The notes beneath the pieces are model-generated. The model worked only from the letters and a program-made list of their open reading frames with translations, ran no database searches and had not been told where the DNA came from. A DNA stretch of 64,000 nucleotides from Nocardioides humi (GTDB lineage: Bacteria; Actinomycetota; Actinomycetes; Propionibacteriales; Nocardioidaceae). The translations under genes were made by a program, and so were the position numbers. Location of the stretch: positions 4,960,001 to 5,024,000 of the forward strand of contig NZ_CP041146.1 of NCBI RefSeq assembly GCF_006494775.1. Reading direction: 5' to 3'. Shown here one piece after another: positions 10,746 to 20,733 of the stretch (position 1 is its first letter; every line of letters begins with the position of its first letter).

Positions 10746-12283
10746 GTGAGCTGATCACGAAGACCGCCGCCGAGCTGGCCGACCTGCTGGCCGCGGGCGA
10801 GACCACCTCGGTCGAGCTGACCCAGATCCACCTGGACCGGATCGCCGCCGTCGACGGCGACGCCGAGTCCGGGGTGCACGCCTTCCTCCACGTCGACGCC
10901 GAGGGCGCGCTGGCCCAGGCGGCCGCGTCCGACGCCCGGCGCGCGGCCGGCGAGGCACGGCACCTGCTCGACGGCGTGCCGATCGCGGTCAAGGACGTGC
11001 TGGCCACGCAGGGCCTGCCCACGACGTGCGGCTCGAAGATCCTCGAGGGCTGGGTGCCGCCGTACGACGCCACCGTGGTCCGCAAGATCAAGGCGGCCGG
11101 CCTGCCGATCCTCGGCAAGACCAATATGGACGAGTTCGCGATGGGCTCCTCGACCGAGCACTCGGCGTACGGGCCGACGCGCAACCCGTGGGACCAGGGC
11201 CGGATCCCGGGCGGCTCCGGTGGCGGCTCGGCCGCGGCGGTGGCGGCCTTCGAGGCCCCGCTGGCGCTCGGCACCGACACCGGCGGCTCGATCCGCCAGC
11301 CCGGAGCGGTCACCGGCACGGTCGGCGTGAAGCCGACCTACGGCGGCGTGTCGCGCTACGGCCTGGTCGCGCTCGCCAACAGCCTCGACCAGGTCGGCCC
11401 GGTCGCCCGCACCGTCCTCGACGCAGGCCTGCTGCACGAGCTGATCGGCGGCCACGACCCGCTCGACTCGACCTCGGTCGACGTGCCCGTCGGCGCGTAC
11501 GTCGAGGCGGCCCGCGCAGGCGCGACGGGCGACCTCGCCGGCCTGAAGGTCGGTGTCATCACGGAGCTCTCCGGCGACGGCTGGCAGCCCGGCGTGATGG
11601 AGCGCTTCGCCGAGACCGTCGACCTGCTGAAGGAGCTCGGCGCCGAGGTCACCGAGGTGTCCTGCCCGACCTTCGTGCACGCGATGGCGACCTACTACCT
11701 CATCCTGCCGGCGGAGTGCTCCTCCAACCTCGCCAAGTTCGACGCGATGAGGTACGGCCTGCGGGTCGTGCCGGAGGCCGCCGCGAACGGCGCGCCGCCG
11801 AGTGCCGAGGCGGTCATGAAGGCCACCCGCGACGCCGGCTTCGGCGATGAGGTGAAGCGCCGGATCATGATCGGCACCTACGCCCTGTCCAGCGGCTACT
11901 ACGACGCCTACTACGGCCAGGCGCAGAAGGTCCGCACGCTTATCTCGCGCGACTTCGCCGCCGCCTTCGAGAGCGTCGACGTGCTGGTCTCGCCGACCTC
12001 GCCGACCACGGCCTTCCCGCTGGGGGAGAAGCTCGACGACCCGCTCGCGATGTACCTGCAGGACCTCGCCACGATCCCGGCCAACCTGGCCGGCGTACCC
12101 GGCATCTCGGTCCCCGCCGGCCTCGCCGCCGAGGACGGCCTGCCGGTCGGCTTCCAGGTGCTGGCGCCGGCGCTCGCCGACGACCGGCTCTACCGCGTCG
12201 GCGCGGCCGTCGAGACGGCGCTCACCGACCGCTGGGGCGGTCCGATCCTTGCGAAGGCCCCGAGCCTGGAGGTGTCCCGATGA
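10742..12283 (+). CDS. gatA: Glutaminyl-tRNA amidotransferase subunit GatA
   Basis: Amidase subunit that releases ammonia from glutamine and channels it to GatB. The 513-residue protein carries the amidase-signature triad: Lys84 (IAVKDVL), cis-Ser159 ([12 protein letters not shown]) and nucleophile Ser183 ([11 protein letters not shown]). The spacings match GatA of other bacteria. It starts with GTG inside the gatC stop and ends in a four-base overlap with the gatB ATG, so expression of the three subunits is tightly coupled. Confidence 0.97.
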
Positions 12284-13787
12284 CCGACGTGCTCGTCCCG
12301 TTCGACGACGTCATCACCCGCTACGACCCCGCCCTCGGCCTCGAGGTGCACGTCGAGCTCAACACGAACACCAAGATGTTCTGCGGCTGCCCGACGGAGT
12401 TCGGCGCCGAGCCCAACACCCAGGTCTGCCCGACCTGCCTGGGCCTGCCGGGCGCGATGCCGGTCGTCAACGGCAAGGCCGTCGAGTCGGCCATCCGGAT
12501 CGGGCTCGCGCTCAACTGCGACATCGCCGAGTGGTGCCGGTTCGCGCGGAAGAACTACTTCTACCCGGACATGCCGAAGAACTTCCAGACCTCCCAGTAC
12601 GACGAGCCGATCGCCTTCGACGGCTGGCTCGACGTGACTGTGCCGTCCGAGGAGGGGAGGGCGAGACGGTCCGGGTCGAGATCGAGCGCGCCCACATGGA
12701 GGAGGACACCGGCAAGTCCACCCACGTCGGCGGCGCGACCGGCCGGATCCACGGCGCGGACTACTCGCTCGTCGACTACAACCGCGCCGGCATCCCCCTG
12801 ATCGAGATCGTGACCCGCCCGATCCTGGTGCCCGCCGAGAAGGCGCCGGCCGTGGCCCGCGCGTACGTCGCCCAGCTCCGCGACCTGATCGTCGCGCTCG
12901 GCGTCTCCGACGCCCGGATGGACCAGGGCTCGATCCGCGCCGACGTGAACCTGTCGCTGGCCCCCAAGGGCGTGTCGAGGCTCGGGACGCGCTCGGAGAC
13001 CAAGAACGTCAACTCGCTGCGCTCGGTCGAGCGGGCGGTGCGCTTCGAGATGTCGCGGCACGCCGGGATCCTCGACGCCGGCGGCGCCGTACTCCAGGAG
13101 ACGCGGCACTTCCACGAGGACACCGGTACGACGTCGTCGGGGCGCGAGAAGTCCGACGCCGAGGACTACCGGTACTTCCCCGAGCCCGACCTGGTCCCCG
13201 TGGCCCCGTCGCGGGAGTGGGTGGAGGAGCTGCGTGGCACGCTGCCGGAGAACCCGACCCAGAAGCGCGCCCGGCTGCAGGCCGAGTGGGCCTTCTCCGA
13301 CCTGGAGATGCGGGACACGGTCGGCGCGGGCGCGCTGGACCTGGTCGAGCAGACCGTCGCCGCCGGGGCCGCGCCCCAGTCCGCCCGCAAGTGGTGGCTG
13401 ACCGAGCTGGCCCGCCGCGCCAACGACGCCGGCGTCGAGCTCGCGGAGCTGTCCGTCACCCCCGCGCAGGTCGCCGAGGTGCAGGCGCTGGTCGACGCCA
13501 AGACGATCAACGACAAGCTGGCCCGCCAGGTCTTCGACGGCCTGCTCGCCGGCGAGGGCACCCCGGAGGAGATCGTCGCCGCCCGCGGCCTCGCGGTCGT
13601 GTCGGACGACGGCGCGCTGTCGGCGGCCGTCGACAAGGCGATCGCCGACAACCCGGACGTCGCGGACAAGATCCGCGACGGCAAGGTCGCCGCCGCCGGT
13701 GCGCTGATCGGTGCGGTGATGAAGGAGATGCGGGGCCAGGCCGACGCCGGCCGGGTCCGGGAGCTGATCCTGGAGAAACTGGGGTGA
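12280..13787 (+). CDS. gatB: Glutaminyl-tRNA amidotransferase subunit GatB (one frame break)
   Basis: Kinase and tRNA-binding subunit: phosphorylates the misacylated glutamate or aspartate and accepts ammonia from GatA. The first frame runs from ATG 12280 ([19 protein letters not shown], with zinc ligands near CPTCLGLPG) to about 12654. The second frame continues from [20 protein letters not shown] to the stop at 13787, including the C-terminal YqeY-like domain. Adding one G in the G-run at 12654-12661 restores a 502-residue protein of normal length. Actinobacteria generally lack GlnRS and need this enzyme, so a true knockout is improbable; I infer a sequencing or assembly error. Confidence 0.93.
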
Positions 13788-13803: not shown

Positions 13804-13839
13804 GGTGTGACACCGGAAGAGAGGTGTTACACTTGGCGT
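13804..13839 (+). promoter_or_regulatory. Promoter with twin palindromic operators upstream of the VapB-like gene
   Basis: Two palindromes, GGTGTGACACC (13804-13814) and GGTGTTACACT (13823-13833, one base off), lie 19 bases apart centre to centre. The second contains a -10-like TACACT (13828-13833) and the first a -35-like GTGACA or TGTGAC. The ATG follows the -10 by seven bases, which implies a leaderless transcript. The layout suits autorepression by the antitoxin-toxin complex. Confidence 0.6.
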
Positions 13840-14109
13840 ATGCCGACTGCACGGCGACGCCACGCGATCACCGAGACCGAGGCGGTCGCGGCTGCCCTCG
13901 AGGCCGCGGCGCGGAAGTGGCCGGAGGACCGTGACCGGCCAGCGCGGCTGCTGAACCATCTCATCGAGATCGGGTTCCATACGATCGAGGTCGAGCTCGA
14001 CGAGAAGGCGCTCGCACGACGCCGGGCGCTAGAGCGTGTCAAGGGCTCTCTTACGGGCGTGTACGGTCCCGGATACCTGGAGAAGCTCCGCGCGGAGTGG
14101 CCTGAATGA
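13840..14109 (+). CDS. VapB-like antitoxin
   Basis: Probable antitoxin that neutralises the PIN-domain toxin encoded immediately downstream and represses their shared promoter. It has 89 residues, is rich in Arg and Glu, and ends with LEKLRAEWPE. I do not recognise the DNA-binding fold with confidence; identification rests mainly on partner, size and the four-base overlap (ATGA) with the toxin gene. ATG 13840 is preferred to the earlier in-frame ATG 13807, which would lie inside the operator. Confidence 0.72.
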   Translation: MPTARRRHAITETEAVAAALEAAARKWPEDRDRPARLLNHLIEIGFHTIEVELDEKALARRRALERVKGSLTGVYGPGYLEKLRAEWPE

Positions 14110-14516
14110 TCGCTGTCGATGCGGGCGTTGTCATCGCTGTTCTCGATGAGCTCGACGCCCACAACGAGGCTGCGTTCGAGCTGTTGCTTGCTGCCGGCGA
14201 CCAGAGACTTGTGATGGGACCGGTGACGCGTGCGGAGGCGTTGGTGGGTGCCACGCGTCGCGGGCGCACGGCCGAGGCGATCGCGCAGATGGACGTGATC
14301 GGGATCGAGGAGATCCCGCTGCCCACTGATGCCGCGGTCCGACTTGCGGAGCTTCGTGCGACCACGGGCGTGAAGATGCCTGACTGCTGCTTGCTGTTGG
14401 TGGCCCAACAGACAGGATCGGCGTTGGCGACGTTCGACCATCGCCTGCGCTCCGCCGCCCGCTCCCTCGGGCTGGCCGTCCTTCCCGATGACGAGGAGCC
14501 CGATCCCCGGAGTTAG
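14106..14516 (+). CDS. VapC-like PIN-domain ribonuclease toxin
   Basis: Magnesium-dependent RNase toxin of a type II system. The 136-residue PIN domain shows the expected acidic quartet: Asp5 (MIAVDAGVVIAVLD), Glu44 (VTRAEALVG), Asp93 (VKMPDCCLL) and Asp111 (ATFDHRLRSAA). Full length, so probably active. VapC enzymes usually cut tRNAs or rRNA; the target here is unknown. It overlaps the antitoxin gene by four bases. Confidence 0.88.
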   Translation: MIAVDAGVVIAVLDELDAHNEAAFELLLAAGDQRLVMGPVTRAEALVGATRRGRTAEAIAQMDVIGIEEIPLPTDAAVRLAELRATTGVKMPDCCLLLVAQQTGSALATFDHRLRSAARSLGLAVLPDDEEPDPRS

Positions 14517-14536
14517 ACTCCCGGAGACACATCGAG

Positions 14537-14676
14537 AACACGCCCGTGGTGGGGGAAGCCGGTCGAAGTCCGGCGCTGACCCGCAGCCGTGGACCGCTCC
14601 TCGCCGGAGCGGTGAGCCGGAGCACCTGCCGTGGCGCGTCCTGACACAACGCTGTCGTGGAGAGCAGCGGGTCAGT
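14537..14676 (+). ncRNA. Cobalamin (B12) riboswitch
   Basis: Cis-acting RNA that binds adenosylcobalamin or a related form and lowers expression of the genes behind it. Conserved core elements are readable in order: GGGAAGCCGGTCGAAGTCCG, GCTGACCCGCAGCCGTG, and after a variable stem GTGAGCCGGAGCACCTGCC. Immediately downstream, CTGAC (14641-14645) pairs with GTCAG (14671-14675) and CGCTG (14650-14654) with CAGCG (14665-14669). This hairpin is probably the P13-like stem that docks with the core. The controlled start codon is at 14726, so translational control is likely; no U-rich terminator is seen. Confidence 0.92.
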
Positions 14677-14725
14677 GGCACCAGGAATCTGGGCCCGCCC
14701 GTTGATCGCAGCGGGAAGGCCCCAC

Positions 14726-16273
14726 ATGTCCCCACGTTTCCCCGTACGCCGCGCGGTCGCTGCCGTCGCCGGCGGTGCCGTCGTCGCCGGCGGCCTGATG
14801 GTCGCCGGGCCGACCCCGGTGGCCCACGCCGCTCCCGTCAACGCGGAGGCCGAGGCGGCCGCCGGCTGGCTCGCCGACCAGCTCGACGAGGACGGCCTGT
14901 TCACCTACCTCGACTGGCAGGGCCAGTCCACCACCGACATCGGCACCACGATCGACTTCGGGCTGAGCCTGCTGGAGACCGATCCCGACGCACCTCAGCT
15001 GAACACCGCGCTGACCGGTGTCCAAGCGGTTCTCGCCGACTACGTCGGCACGCCCGAGGTCACCAACACCGGTGGTCTGGCCAAGGCTGCTGCCCTGTAT
15101 CAGGCGGCCGACTTCGACATCGAGGACATCGACGGCCTCGATCTGCTGACTTCTCTCGAGGGCGTGATCCAGGCGGACGGGCAGCTCGGCGGGTCCAAGG
15201 ACGTCTACGGCCAGTCCTGGGCGGTCCAGGTGCTCAGGGAGGCCAGCAGCCCCAAGACCGCGGACGCGACCGACAAGCTGATCGAGCAGGCGTGCGACGA
15301 CGGGGGCTGGGGATACGACGACTTCCAGACGGGCGATTGCGTCTCGGTACCCGACGGCACGGCGTACGCGGTGCTCGCCCTGCTGCCCCAGCAGGACGAC
15401 CCCGACGTCGCGGCGGCGATCGACGACGGCATCGCCTGGCTCGACGGCCAGCAGCGGGCCGACGGCGGCTTCGGCGACTGGGGCGACAACGCCAACGGCA
15501 CCACCAGCGAGGCGAACGGCTCGGGCCTGGCGGCCTGGGCGCTCGGTGAGGCCGGGGAGACCGCGAAGGCGGAGGCCGCGGCGACCTGGGTCGCCGACCA
15601 CCAGGTGACGGCCGTCCCGGCGGCCTGCGGCGCGACGCCGCTGGCCGGCGAGACCGGCGCCCTCGCCTACGACGACAAGAACATCAGGGACGCGATCAAG
15701 GACGGGATCACCGCCACCGACCAGCAGACCTGGGTGATCGCCGGCGCGCAGGCCCTCGCCGGCCTCGCCTACCTGCCCACGCGCCCGGCGACGACCGGGT
15801 CCCTGACCGCGCCCACCGGCTACGTCGACGCCGGCCAGCCGGCCACGGTCCAGGTCGGTGGCCTGCGTCCCGGCCAGACCGCCTGCCTGACCGGTGTCGG
15901 CGCCACGCAGTGGTTCGTCGGCCAGGGCAGCACGACCTTCCTGGTCCCGGGCGGTACGGGTGACCACACGCTCACGCTGAGCTACGCGGGCGGCAGCGCG
16001 ACCGCCACCCTCAAGGCCCTCGACGCCAAGAAGCTCGAGGTCAAGGTGAAGGGCAAGCTCAAGGCCAAGAAGAAGGCCACCATCAAGGTGAAGGGCCTCG
16101 CCGCCGGCGAGACCGTCACCGTCAAGGTCGGCAAGAAGAAGGCCTCGGGCGTCGCGAACGCCAAGGGCGTCGCCAAGGTGAAGGTCAAGGTCAAGAAGAA
16201 GGGCAAGGCCAAGGTCAAGGTGACCGGCCAGTTCCCCGACCGCACGGGCAAGGCCACGACCCGGGTCGTCTGA
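14726..16273 (+). CDS. Secreted transcobalamin alpha-domain-like protein (prenyltransferase-type repeats)
   Basis: Predicted exported cobalamin-binding protein. The 515 residues comprise a signal peptide (to about AAPVNAEA, residue 38) and an alpha/alpha-toroid of prenyltransferase/intrinsic-factor-type repeats (about 40-330). Repeat signatures are DGQLGGSKDVYGQSWAVQVL, DGGWGYDD and ADGGFGDWGDNA. Ig-like segments follow, then a strongly basic tail (KVKVKGKLKAKKKATIKVKG). The alpha domain of animal transcobalamin has this fold. First gene after the riboswitch, with GGGAAGG six bases before ATG 14726. A cell-wall role for the basic tail is inferred. Alternatively a terpene-cyclase-like enzyme, but the riboswitch and neighbours favour B12 binding. 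Confidence 0.78.
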   Translation: MSPRFPVRRAVAAVAGGAVVAGGLMVAGPTPVAHAAPVNAEAEAAAGWLADQLDEDGLFTYLDWQGQSTTDIGTTIDFGLSLLETDPDAPQLNTALTGVQAVLADYVGTPEVTNTGGLAKAAALYQAADFDIEDIDGLDLLTSLEGVIQADGQLGGSKDVYGQSWAVQVLREASSPKTADATDKLIEQACDDGGWGYDDFQTGDCVSVPDGTAYAVLALLPQQDDPDVAAAIDDGIAWLDGQQRADGGFGDWGDNANGTTSEANGSGLAAWALGEAGETAKAEAAATWVADHQVTAVPAACGATPLAGETGALAYDDKNIRDAIKDGITATDQQTWVIAGAQALAGLAYLPTRPATTGSLTAPTGYVDAGQPATVQVGGLRPGQTACLTGVGATQWFVGQGSTTFLVPGGTGDHTLTLSYAGGSATATLKALDAKKLEVKVKGKLKAKKKATIKVKGLAAGETVTVKVGKKKASGVANAKGVAKVKVKVKKKGKAKVKVTGQFPDRTGKATTRVV

Positions 16274-17172
16274 ATGACGCCCACCAGGTCCCTGCGCACG
16301 GTGGCCGCGACGCTCCTCGTCGCGGCCGCCGTGGTGCTGCTTCCGCACGCGCCCGCCACCGCGGCAGCGTGCAGCGGCACGGGCGGGTCACCGTGGTCGT
16401 CGACGCAGGCGAGCTCGGCGCGGGCATCAGCGCGGGCTGCGACCCCTCGGTCGCCGCAGGCGAGGTGGCGGCGAAGAACTTCGCCGACGCCGGATACACC
16501 ATCGAGTACAGCCAGGCGTCCGGCATGAGCGGGTTCGTCTGCAAGGTCAACGGCAACCCGGCGGACGGGCACTGCACCGAGACCGACGCCTACTGGAGCC
16601 TGTGGTGGTCCGACGGCCGGTCCGGCACCTGGATCTACGCCAACCGCGGCGTCGGCGGGCTCAAGGTGCCCGACGGCGGGTACGTCGCGTTCTCCTGGCA
16701 CCAGGGCGCCGGGAAGGCCTCGCCGCCGGACGTCGCCGCGACGCCGCGGGCCACCGCCCCGAAGCCGTCCGCGAGCCCGAGCCCCACCAAGAGCGGACAG
16801 GGCGGGAAGGGCAAGAGCGCGAAGAAGACCGGCAAGGCCACGCCGTCGGCGACGCCGTCGCCCAGCGCGTCCTCGACGACCCCGACGACGTCCCCGAGCG
16901 CGTCCCCGAGCACGACCGCCCCCACCGAGGCGCCGACCGACGCCACCAGCACCGCCGCGCCCTCGGACACCCCGAGCCAGACCGCGACCAGCGGCCTGCC
17001 CTCGATCGACGAGATCACCGACGGTCCCGAGGCGACCTCGGCCGACGCCGGCGCCGGCGGTGACGACGACGGCAGCGGCTTCCCGGCCTGGCTGGGCGTC
17101 GGCCTGGTGGTCGTCGTGCTGGGCGCGGCCGCCGCCGTACCCCTCCTCCGGCGCCGCGGGGCCAAGGCCTGA
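16274..17172 (+). CDS. Membrane-anchored DUF4430 protein, transcobalamin beta-domain-like (one frame break)
   Basis: Predicted surface partner in B12 capture. A signal peptide (TVAATLLVAAAVVLLPHAPA) starts at ATG 16274, directly after the previous stop. The mature part begins CSGTG and, after one lost base near 16381-16387, continues RVTVVVDAGELG. The DUF4430-like domain (about residues 40-150) contains MSGFVCKVNG, then YWSLWWSDGRSGTWIYANRG, then VAFSWHQG. A long Ser/Thr/Pro spacer and a C-terminal membrane helix ending RRRGAKA follow. Adding one base gives 299 residues. DUF4430 corresponds to the small domain closing over cobalamin in transcobalamin and intrinsic factor. The break looks like a base-calling error. 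Confidence 0.78.
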
Positions 17173-17189
17173 GCCATGGGCGGCGGTCG

Positions 17190-18287
17190 ATGAGGCTGCC
17201 GCGGGACCTCCATCCCGTGGCGTGGTGGGTCTGGGCGGTGGGGCTGGCGGTCGCGGCGTCCTGCACGACGAACCCGTTCCTGCTGCTCGTCCTGCTCGGC
17301 GTGATCACCCTCGTCGTGCTCACCTGCCGCTCCGACCAGCCGTGGGCGCGCTCGTTCCGGCTCTACGCCTGGTTGGGCGTGGTGGTCGTCGTGGTCCGCA
17401 TCCTGTTCCGGGTCCTGCTCGGCGGCGACGTCCCGGGCCACGTCCTCTTCACGCTCCCGACGATCCCGCTCCCGGACTGGGCCGCGGGCATCTCGCTGCT
17501 CGGGCCGTTCACCCGCGAGGAGCTGCTCGCCGCGACCTATGAGGGACTGCGCCTCGCCACGCTGCTGATCGCGGTCGGCGCCGCCAACGCGCTGGCCAAC
17601 CCCAAGCGGCTGATGAAGTCGCTGCCGCCCGCGCTCTACGAGATCGGTACGGCGATGACCGTCGCGATCAGCGTCGTCCCGCAGCTCGCCGACAGCGCCC
17701 GCCGGGTGCGCGCCGCGCAACAGTTGCGCGGGGGACCGGTGGGCCGGTTCCGCCGGATCCGCGGCGTACGACGACTGCTGGTCCCGATCCTCGAGGACTC
17801 CTTCGACCGCTCCCTCGCCCTCGCCGCCGGGATGGACGCCCGCGGCTACGGCCGCACCGGCGAGCTCACCACCGCGCAGCGCCGCACCACCGGGGCACTG
17901 ATCATCGCCGGCCTGCTCGGCGTGTGCGTCGGCGTCTACGCCTTCCTCGACGACACCGCCCCGCGGGTGCTGGCGCTGCCGATGCTGGCGCTCGGGATGC
18001 TCGTCGCGCTCGGCGGCTTCGCGCTCGCGGGCCGGCGGGTCCGGCGGACCCGGTACCGCCCCGACCGCTGGCGCCTGCCCGAGCTCCTCGTCGCGGCCTC
18101 CGGCATCGCCGCCGGCGCGGGCATGTGGGCCGTGTGGAACGGAGACCCGCAGCTCGCCCACCCCGGCGTCCTCGCCGTCCCCGGCGTGTCGCTACCGGCG
18201 CTCGTGGCCGCGCTCGTCGCCGTGCTCCCGGTCTGGGCCGCGCCGCTGCCCGTCACCGCCCAGCGGCGCGAGGAGGTGCCCGCCTGA
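17190..18287 (+). CDS. ECF transporter transmembrane (T) component
   Basis: Integral membrane coupling subunit of an energy-coupling factor importer. The 365 residues include several hydrophobic helices. Two cytoplasmic coupling motifs of the x-Arg-Gly kind are visible: AAQQLRGG and AAGMDARGYG, which contact the two ATPases. It is a little longer than average T components because of extra C-terminal helices (ALIIAGLLGVCVGVYAFL onward). Its stop overlaps the ATG of the ATPase gene by one base. Confidence 0.9.
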   Translation: MRLPRDLHPVAWWVWAVGLAVAASCTTNPFLLLVLLGVITLVVLTCRSDQPWARSFRLYAWLGVVVVVVRILFRVLLGGDVPGHVLFTLPTIPLPDWAAGISLLGPFTREELLAATYEGLRLATLLIAVGAANALANPKRLMKSLPPALYEIGTAMTVAISVVPQLADSARRVRAAQQLRGGPVGRFRRIRGVRRLLVPILEDSFDRSLALAAGMDARGYGRTGELTTAQRRTTGALIIAGLLGVCVGVYAFLDDTAPRVLALPMLALGMLVALGGFALAGRRVRRTRYRPDRWRLPELLVAASGIAAGAGMWAVWNGDPQLAHPGVLAVPGVSLPALVAALVAVLPVWAAPLPVTAQRREEVPA

Positions 18288-19930
18288 TGCTCGAGCTGCG
18301 CGCCATCACCCTGCGCTACGACGACCCCGAGACGGGCTCGGCGGCGACCGTCCTCGACGGCATCGACCTGACCGTCGCGGACGGCGAGCTGGTCGTCCTC
18401 GCCGGCCCGACCGGGGTCGGCAAGTCCACCCTGCTCGGCGTGGTGGCGGGCCTGGTGCCGTCGTACACCGGCGGCACCCTCACCGGCGACGTCCTCCTCG
18501 ACGGCACCGGCATCGTCGACCGGCCGGCCCGGGAGCGTGCCCACGCCATCGGGTACGTCGGCCAGAATCCCGCCGCCTGGTTCGTCACCGACACCGTGGA
18601 GGAGGAGCTGGCGTTCGGGATGGAGCAGCTCGGGCTGCCGGCGCCGACCATGCGCCGCCGGGTGGAGGAGACGCTCGACCTGCTCGGCATCGCCGACCTG
18701 CGCCACCGCGACCTGCGCACCCTGTCGGGCGGGCAGCAGCAGCGGGTCGCGATCGGCGCCGTGCTGACCACCCACCCGCGGCTGCTCGTGCTCGACGAGC
18801 CCACGTCGGCGCTCGACCCGACGGCCGCCGAGGACGTGCTGGCCACGCTGACCCGGCTGGTCCACGACCTCGGCGTCTCGGTCCTGGTCGCCGAGCACCG
18901 CCTGGAGCGGGTGGTGCCCTTCGCCGACCGGCTCTGCCTGCTCGGCGGCGACCCGGCCCGCCCCGGGAGCGCCCGGGTCGGCGACCCCGCCGAGGTCCTC
19001 CAGGACGCCCCGATCGCCCCGCCGCTGGTCGAGCTCGGCCGGCTCGCCGGGTGGCGGCCGCTGCCGCTCACCGTGCGCGACGCCCGGCGCCGCGCGCCCG
19101 ACCTGCGCGCCCGGCTGGGGGACCCGCCCCACCGGGAGCGGGTCGCCGCCGCCGGGGATCCCCTCGTCGAGGTACGACGCCTGGTGGTCGCCCACGGCCG
19201 CACGCCCGTGCTGCGCGAGGTCGACCTCACCCTCCGCCCGGGAACGGTCACCGCCCTCATGGGCCGCAACGGCGCCGGCAAGTCGACGCTGCTGTGGGCG
19301 CTCCAGGGCCGCCACGCCGCGGGCAGCGGCAGCGTGCGGGTGGCCGGCGGCGATCCGGCGAGCCTGACACCGGAGCAGCGTCGCGCCACCACCGGACTGG
19401 TGCCGCAGAGCCCCGCCGACCTGCTCTACCTCGAGACCGTCGCCGAGGAGTGCACCGCCGCCGACGCCTCGGCGGACGCGGCCGCCGGCACCTGCGCCGG
19501 ACTGCTCGAGCGGCTGGCCCCCGGCATCGACCCGGACCGCCATCCGCGCGACCTGTCCGAGGGGCAGCGACTCGCGCTCGCGGTGGCCATCGTGCTCACC
19601 GCGCGCCCGCCGGTGCTGCTGCTCGACGAGCCGACCCGCGGCCTGGACTACCCGGCCAAGCGGGCCCTGGCCGGCCTGCTCCGCGAGCTCGCCCAGGAGC
19701 CCGGCGCCCGGCGCGCGGTGCTCGTCGCCACGCACGACGTGGAGTTCGTCGCGCAGGTCGCCGACGACCTCGTGGTCCTCGCGGAGGGTGAGGTGGTGTC
19801 CGCCGGCCCGGTCGTGCCCACGGTGTCGGAGTCCCCGGCGTTCGCGCCGCAGGTCACCAAGGTGCTGGGCGCCGGGTGGCTGAGCGTCGACGACGTCGCC
19901 GCGGGCCTGACGGCCGGGGTCGGGCCGTGA
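18287..19930 (+). CDS. ECF transporter ATPase, two fused nucleotide-binding domains
   Basis: Energises the ECF importer. The 547-residue protein fuses both ATPases that are often separate (EcfA and EcfA'). Domain 1 (about 1-265): Walker A AGPTGVGKSTLLG, signature LSGGQQQRVAIG, Walker B LLVLDEPTSALDP. Domain 2 (about 290-530): Walker A GRNGAGKSTLLWALQG, signature LSEGQRLALAVA, Walker B VLLLDEPTRGLDYPAKR. The second signature has Glu in place of the usual Gly (LSEGQ), seen in some ECF ATPases. It overlaps the S-component gene by four bases. Confidence 0.94.
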   Translation: MLELRAITLRYDDPETGSAATVLDGIDLTVADGELVVLAGPTGVGKSTLLGVVAGLVPSYTGGTLTGDVLLDGTGIVDRPARERAHAIGYVGQNPAAWFVTDTVEEELAFGMEQLGLPAPTMRRRVEETLDLLGIADLRHRDLRTLSGGQQQRVAIGAVLTTHPRLLVLDEPTSALDPTAAEDVLATLTRLVHDLGVSVLVAEHRLERVVPFADRLCLLGGDPARPGSARVGDPAEVLQDAPIAPPLVELGRLAGWRPLPLTVRDARRRAPDLRARLGDPPHRERVAAAGDPLVEVRRLVVAHGRTPVLREVDLTLRPGTVTALMGRNGAGKSTLLWALQGRHAAGSGSVRVAGGDPASLTPEQRRATTGLVPQSPADLLYLETVAEECTAADASADAAAGTCAGLLERLAPGIDPDRHPRDLSEGQRLALAVAIVLTARPPVLLLDEPTRGLDYPAKRALAGLLRELAQEPGARRAVLVATHDVEFVAQVADDLVVLAEGEVVSAGPVVPTVSESPAFAPQVTKVLGAGWLSVDDVAAGLTAGVGP

Positions 19931-20733
19931 GCGCCGCCGTACCCCTCCGGCTCCGTTCGAGCGTCGTCCTCGTCATCACCTCGGTGATCGGCCTGCTGAT
20001 GCTGGCCTGGCCGCTGCTCCTCGACGTCGACCCGAACGCCGAGCGCGTCGACCCGCCGTTCCTCTTCCTGCTCCTGCTGCCGGTGATCCTCGGCGTGGTG
20101 CTCGCCGAGCTGAGCGAGGGCGGGATGGACGCCCGGGTGCTCGCCGTGCTCGGGGTGCTCAGCGCGGTCAACGCGGTGCTCCGCCTGCTCAGCGCCGGTA
20201 CGGCGGGCCTGGAGCTGGTGTTCTTCCTGCTCATCCTCGGCGGCCGGGTCTTCGGCCCGGGGTTCGGCTTCGTCCTCGGCTGCACCTCGCTGTTCGCCTC
20301 GGCCCTGATGACCGCCGGTGTCGGGCCGTGGCTGCCGTTCCAGATGCTCGTCGCCGCCTGGGTCGGCATGGGCGCCGGGCTGCTGCCCCGCCGGGTGCGC
20401 GGCCGCCGCGAGATCGCCCTGCTGACGGTGTACGGCGTGGTCTCGGCCTACGCCTACGGCCTGCTGATGAACCTCCAGGGCTGGCCCTTCATCGCCGGCA
20501 TCCAGGTCCCCGGCCAGGACTCCTCGGAGCTGTCCTACGTCCCGGGCGCCGCGGTGCTGGACAACCTGCACCACTTCCTCGTCTACACGCTGCTGACCTC
20601 CACGGGCGGCTGGGACACCGGCCGGGCGATCACCAACGCGCTCGCCATCGTGCTGCTCGGCCCGGCCGTGCTCGTCACGCTGCGCCGGGCCGCCCGCAAG
20701 GCCCGGATCGACCCCGCGGCCGTGCCCCGCTGA
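19927..20733 (+). CDS. ECF transporter substrate-binding S component, probably for cobalamin (CbrT-like)
   Basis: Membrane-embedded substrate receptor of the ECF importer. The 268 residues form about six hydrophobic helices, including GVVLAELSEGGMDARVLAVL, an ECF-S-like LVFFLLILGGRVFGPGFGFV segment and GVGPWLPFQMLVAAWVGMGA. Cobalamin is inferred as substrate from the riboswitch and the transcobalamin-like genes in the same operon, and from the overall resemblance to CbrT-type S components. It starts with GTG inside the ATPase stop. A strong hairpin terminator follows. Confidence 0.85.
   Translation: MSAAVPLRLRSSVVLVITSVIGLLMLAWPLLLDVDPNAERVDPPFLFLLLLPVILGVVLAELSEGGMDARVLAVLGVLSAVNAVLRLLSAGTAGLELVFFLLILGGRVFGPGFGFVLGCTSLFASALMTAGVGPWLPFQMLVAAWVGMGAGLLPRRVRGRREIALLTVYGVVSAYAYGLLMNLQGWPFIAGIQVPGQDSSELSYVPGAAVLDNLHHFLVYTLLTSTGGWDTGRAITNALAIVLLGPAVLVTLRRAARKARIDPAAVPR

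Follow-up and report, generated by a model that had tools for sequence, protein, structure and literature searches.

A probable riboswitch-controlled corrinoid uptake operon of Nocardioides humi with a predicted two-chain, transcobalamin-like receptor

Riboswitch and genes of the operon

The window analyzed here, a 64-kb stretch of DNA covering positions 4,960,001 to 5,024,000 of the 6.22-Mb single-contig genome of Nocardioides humi, contains a five-gene operon that is preceded by a cobalamin riboswitch and encodes two exported proteins and an energy-coupling factor (ECF) transporter, all on the plus strand (window coordinates are used throughout). Judged from its established gene order, riboswitch sequence, conservation, natural fusions, and predicted folds, this is very probably a riboswitch-controlled operon for the uptake of corrinoids (vitamin B12), in which a transcobalamin-like clamp divided between two polypeptides serves as the outside receptor. 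The operon leader (14531 to 14647) matches the cobalamin riboswitch family RF00174 with 35.8 bits, above the curated gathering score of 31.5 (E = 2e-5), and is the sole above-threshold Rfam match within the window; it lies on the same strand as, and 5' of, the first gene, the ATG of which follows its end by 78 bases. The genes are contiguous to 20733 and are joined, in order, by a junction of 0 bp, a gap of 17 bp, a 1-base overlap (TGATG), and a 4-base overlap (GTGA). A preceding sequence-only reading of this DNA had described a riboswitch followed by five tightly packed genes, and both the Rfam match and the contiguity of the operon bear it out.

The first gene (14726 to 16273) encodes a secreted alpha/alpha-toroid protein of 515 amino acids, the alpha half of the proposed receptor, which comprises a signal peptide, the toroid (approximately 14840 to 15790), and a C-terminal beta-sandwich-like region; inspection of its translation showed no membrane helix at the C terminus. 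Pfam and NCBIfam gave only weak matches for the toroid, with PF13243 below its cut-off (E = 5e-5), and were uninformative for the beta domain of the second protein. Against a toroid profile made from other species only, the protein scored 94 bits (E = 5.9e-27 for an assumed database of 10,000), compared with 4.8 bits for the best of 400 shuffles, and a profile search found it to be single copy in the genome (E <= 0.01). Two toroid-family proteins of Micromonospora (P0235 and P0237) are named as LPXTG cell wall-anchored proteins, which suggests that the alpha half may be anchored in another way.

The second gene (16274 to 17172) encodes the beta half, with a signal peptide (16274 to 16384, the end being approximate), a transcobalamin-like beta domain (16384 to 16704), and a spacer rich in Pro, Ser, Thr, and Ala that leads to a C-terminal membrane helix with an RRR tail (16705 to 17172). 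The beta domain carries conserved cysteines and a conserved YW motif and is the sole match in the genome to the beta profile (alignment A3) at E <= 1e-5, with 97.6 bits. It was also recovered by a beta profile derived solely from fusion proteins (52 bits, E = 4e-14 for an assumed database of 10,000; at most 7.8 bits among 400 shuffles). The membrane anchoring claimed for this protein was upheld by its helix and by the recurrence of the C-terminal anchor block among its relatives (alignment A1). The label DUF4430 was not: PF14478 matched none of 37 proteins (that of the window and 36 homologs) at E <= 1 and, searched against this genome, had no match at E <= 10. The likeness is structural. The sequence-only reading also overlooked a frame break. 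The signal peptide, which begins with the ATG at 16274, and the mature domain, from approximately 16370, are in different frames of the assembly, as seen from translations of both, whereas most relatives, including that at locus L061 (Pimelobacter simplex ATCC 6946), encode the two parts in one frame. Because the gatB gene about 2 kb upstream (about 12220 to 12700) is likewise split across two frames, the break in the beta gene is more readily explained by an assembly error, and both breaks are likely single-base errors of this kind.

The remaining three genes encode the ECF-T transmembrane coupling protein (17190 to 18287; PF02361 CbiQ, 48.9 bits), a fused double ECF ATPase (18287 to 19930; two ABC_tran stretches, 185.7 bits), and the S component, a substrate-specific membrane protein (19927 to 20733; PF12822, 41.2 bits). 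All of these matches exceed their cut-offs, and the parts of an ECF transporter are thus encoded together, as had been proposed from the translations.

Conservation of the operon and fusion of its exported proteins

The S component has at least 548 relatives, and its alignment (A4) drew 80 loci from named genome records of Nocardioides, Kribbella, Amycolatopsis, Actinomadura, Phytohabitans, Micromonospora, Streptomyces, Tessaracoccus, and other genera. Ten loci with less than 5 kb of upstream sequence were set aside, leaving 70 that could be assessed. A riboswitch model (R1), the E values of which are rough, was made from the riboswitches of 11 operons, all passing Rfam, namely, that of the window and 10 from loci L041 to L060. 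It matched upstream of the S gene and on the same strand at 69 of the 70 loci, one of which (L067) is on the same contig as the training locus L041. Between the riboswitch and ecfT, both toroid and beta domains were present in 53 of the 69 operons, beta alone in 13 (L127 by a partial match), and neither in 3; for 8 of the 13, a toroid is found elsewhere in the locus. The layout recurs across Actinomycetota.

Within loci L041 to L060, R1 matched 19 of 20, of which 10 are training sequences, so that 9 of the 10 others were recognized; at the exception, L060, the upstream sequence is cut short. Rfam's own threshold was passed in 10 of these 20 loci, and a recheck of 15 surveyed loci against it found a riboswitch in 8, standing at the operon head in 7. 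The compact riboswitch of the operon lies close to the limit of Rfam. There were also 16 R1 matches away from the operon head, 10 of which are followed on their own strand, after 156 to 329 bases, by a toroid or beta domain. The genes concerned stand outside the riboswitch-to-S stretch and encode a toroid (L084, L085, L086, L100, L110, L121, L125, and L139) or beta plus toroid (L111 and L131). When 8 of these 10 sites (all except L085 and L100) were rechecked against Rfam, 2 passed (L084 and L086).

The two domains also occur as single polypeptides in both orders, toroid-beta (P0193 to P0196, L053, L109, and L129) and beta-toroid (P0203, P0218, L096, L108, and L112). Precomputed annotation places the Pfam entry PF28005.1 on the toroid/beta proteins P0193, P0194, P0203, P0205, P0218, and P0247. 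Among 61 family genomes, the beta profile gave 53 matches, and 45 of them are within 7.04 kb of an S gene; no match was found farther than this from an S gene on the same contig, the remaining 8 being on other contigs of draft genomes (5) or in genomes that have no S match (3).

It might be supposed that the toroid and beta proteins act on B12 outside the cell, scavenging it, storing it, or withholding it from competitors, without feeding the importer directly, and that the ECF complex acts alone, as ECF-CbrT does. The S component CbrT binds cobalamin with nanomolar affinity without an outside protein (PMC5997447), 16 of the 69 operons have no toroid between the riboswitch and ecfT, and some toroid genes lie outside the riboswitch-to-S stretch. 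Set against these points are the presence of a beta domain between riboswitch and ecfT in 66 of the 69 operons and the C-terminal membrane anchor common to beta proteins, and this explanation is considered quite improbable.

A more distant branch, with S components at 45 to 51% identity (L043 to L046, L048, L051, L056, and L058; 8 of the 20 loci L041 to L060), gave no toroid match and has a small anchored protein with the halves of a beta domain. The halves are in swapped order in 7 of these 8 loci, with both below E = 1e-3 only in L051, and this order suggests a possible circular permutation of the beta domain.

Structural relationship to animal cobalamin carriers

The structural link to transcobalamin came to light because a natural toroid-beta fusion was modeled. 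In the AlphaFold model of P0193, a toroid is followed by a beta domain, so that both domains of the transcobalamin fold are present, in the same order as in animal transcobalamin, intrinsic factor, and haptocorrin. Of the 14 best matches of the model in the Protein Data Bank (PDB), 12 are transcobalamin or intrinsic factor entries, the identities to these carriers being 13 to 18%; transcobalamin is the best whole-chain match by E value, and the beta domain superposes on that of human transcobalamin with 2.4 A over 95 residues. PDB sequence searches with the window proteins and the beta profiles gave no match below E = 0.1, and a search with the fusion gave only the toroid of a thioester protein (4lnv, E = 0.0011). 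The comparison with transcobalamin that had been recommended as a check was favorable at the level of folds.

In the closed arrangement of transcobalamin and intrinsic factor, the cobalamin pocket lies between the two domains. The P0193 model, a ligand-free, single-chain prediction, is 21 to 24 A root mean square deviation from these closed, ligand-bound carriers. The domains of human transcobalamin assemble only with cobalamin (PMC5599065). Of the earlier proposal that the exported proteins are the alpha and beta halves of a bacterial transcobalamin, the riboswitch link, the fusions, the fold match, and the distribution of the S gene are in favor, whereas the closed domain arrangement was not reproduced. 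Taken over fold, gene linkage, and distribution, this proposed identification of the two halves is well supported.

Class II terpene cyclases carry a catalytic DxDD motif. The toroid taken alone finds its best structural matches among squalene-hopene cyclase-like and GH76/epimerase folds, and its best Pfam profile is the below-threshold PF13243, so that it could be an exported enzyme of terpene cyclase or glycosidase fold that has no role in B12 metabolism and is merely carried along in the operon. D-x-D-D-T-A, a crude pattern for the cyclase motif, was present in none of 81 toroid segments. The fusion of toroid to beta domain in both orders, the R1 matches before toroid genes outside the main stretch, and the best whole-chain match to transcobalamin likewise speak against an enzyme. 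This explanation is judged very improbable, the least likely of those considered.

That the system works like transcobalamin is well supported by indirect evidence, and binding of the vitamin is predicted. The anchored beta protein would bind cobalamin first, at the cell surface, and the secreted toroid protein would then close over the vitamin, so that the clamp assembles on its ligand in a manner that parallels the assembly of the human alpha and beta domains in vitro. The loaded clamp would stand above the ECF complex and pass cobalamin to the S component, which the T subunit and the double ATPase would drive, and high internal B12 would shut the operon through its riboswitch. Soil actinobacteria thus appear to produce a two-part B12 clamp of the kind that serves animals in blood and gut, mostly as a pair of exported proteins whose genes accompany those of a B12-regulated importer. 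In contrast to the animal carriers, the system is bacterial, consists mostly of two separate polypeptides with a membrane-anchored beta half, and is served by an ECF importer rather than by an endocytic receptor. We lean, by a modest degree, toward a fuller scenario in which an actinobacterial, usually two-chain transcobalamin assembles round B12 and loads an ECF importer, its genes occurring separately or fused as alpha-beta or beta-alpha, and the animal carriers are fused descendants of it or share its ancestor.

B12 demand, substrate, and comparison with known importers

There are six RF00174-like sites in the N. humi genome, five of them over threshold, and one is the operon leader. The other five precede or lie near genes for a periplasmic ABC binding protein, cobalamin biosynthesis-like proteins (cobG-like, cobaltochelatase-like, and adenosyltransferase-like), and a ribonucleotide reductase alpha subunit, and the cobQ and cbiB regions. 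The genome also contains cobJ, and the operon is therefore one member of the B12 regulon in an apparent B12 maker. At 89.6 bits, the highest-scoring cobalamin riboswitch in the genome precedes a gene for an ABC binding lipoprotein of F420-0/EitA type, which falls below the cut-offs of those families (L007, 939 to 2226) and is possibly part of a second corrinoid importer.

The need for an importer was compared with the capacity for synthesis in 149 family genomes, of which 129 are good (completeness of at least 90%, contamination of at most 5%), using cobJ as a marker of B12 synthesis and assigning genomes not listed as matches by difference. The S gene was found in 128 of the 149. Among the good genomes, all 48 that lack cobJ have it, as do 68 of the 81 that have cobJ (Fisher p = 0.0019, a value that overstates independence because the genomes are related). 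The difference disappears when all 149 genomes are counted (p = 0.35), owing to 7 incomplete or contaminated ones that have neither S nor cobJ. The pattern fits an importer that self-sufficient species alone can lose. A B12-mutase domain occurs in all 129 good genomes, and the cells that have S and lack cobJ therefore need a corrinoid, beyond cobalt or a base.

This requirement bears on whether the B12-regulated importer carries some other substrate of the pathway (cobinamide or incomplete corrinoids, the lower-ligand base, or cobalt) that is bound by the two exported proteins. The de novo pathway genes of the host are in keeping with such a substrate, a riboswitch reports B12 and not what is transported, and cobinamide is also taken up by ECF-CbrT (PMC5997447). 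The two-domain fold nevertheless matches cobalamin carriers, uptake of cobinamide would still be corrinoid capture, and a substrate other than B12 is accordingly judged unlikely, if less so than the alternatives above.

BtuF, a known B12-binding protein, has a fold unrelated to the toroid and beta folds. BtuCDF with BtuF nonetheless resembles the window system in pairing an outside binding protein, in the window a predicted one, with an importer, here of the ABC type (PMC5997447). The proven B12 ECF importer is ECF-CbrT of Lactobacillus delbrueckii, from the cluster nrdJ-cbrS-cbrT-pduO, which is likewise an ECF-type importer linked to B12; it uses a shared group II ECF module, whereas the window operon has a dedicated T protein and double ATPase, and the accessible text mentions no toroid partner such as the window operon has (PMC5997447). 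S components may share as little as 16% identity, as do CbrT and FolT2 (PMC5997447). The designation of the S component as CbrT-type is unproven, since its profile (A4) met no PDB chain, and hence not CbrT, at E <= 1.

The gene rtpR encodes a B12-dependent reductase. In Lacticaseibacillus rhamnosus, a DUF4430 gene lies beside rtpR, and the annotated proteins include the DUF4430 protein LGG_02295 and a small protein named "additional lipoprotein component of putative cobalamin ECF transporter" (PMC9963975). These are names in a proteomics paper of which they are not the subject, and no toroid partner is mentioned in its accessible text (PMC9963975); unlike LGG_02295, the beta family of the window has no DUF4430 profile match. 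Because that lipoprotein and DUF4430 gene are already so annotated, a beta-like accessory protein is not wholly new.

Transcobalamin, intrinsic factor, and haptocorrin are generally treated as proteins of animals. Searches of the open-license literature in PMC yielded no bacterial toroid-plus-beta B12 system, two-chain clamp, or fusion of the two, though the founding ECF survey (PMC2612444) or subscription journals may mention one, and the toroid half and the two-chain layout look new. If the proposed function is correct, the separate chains of the bacterial counterpart would dissect ligand-induced assembly in nature and be a possible source for the animal B12 carriers, and they would illustrate how an outside receptor could be added to an ECF importer. 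Genes at present annotated as "prenyltransferase/squalene oxidase repeat-containing" or as hypothetical would then have a role, and it would be easier to predict which actinobacteria rely on B12 that they scavenge.

Just upstream of the riboswitch (13807 to 14516) are genes for a small protein and then a PIN-domain protein (Pfam, 53.7 bits), which is VapC-like yet below the NCBIfam cut-off; the pair resembles a toxin-antitoxin system.
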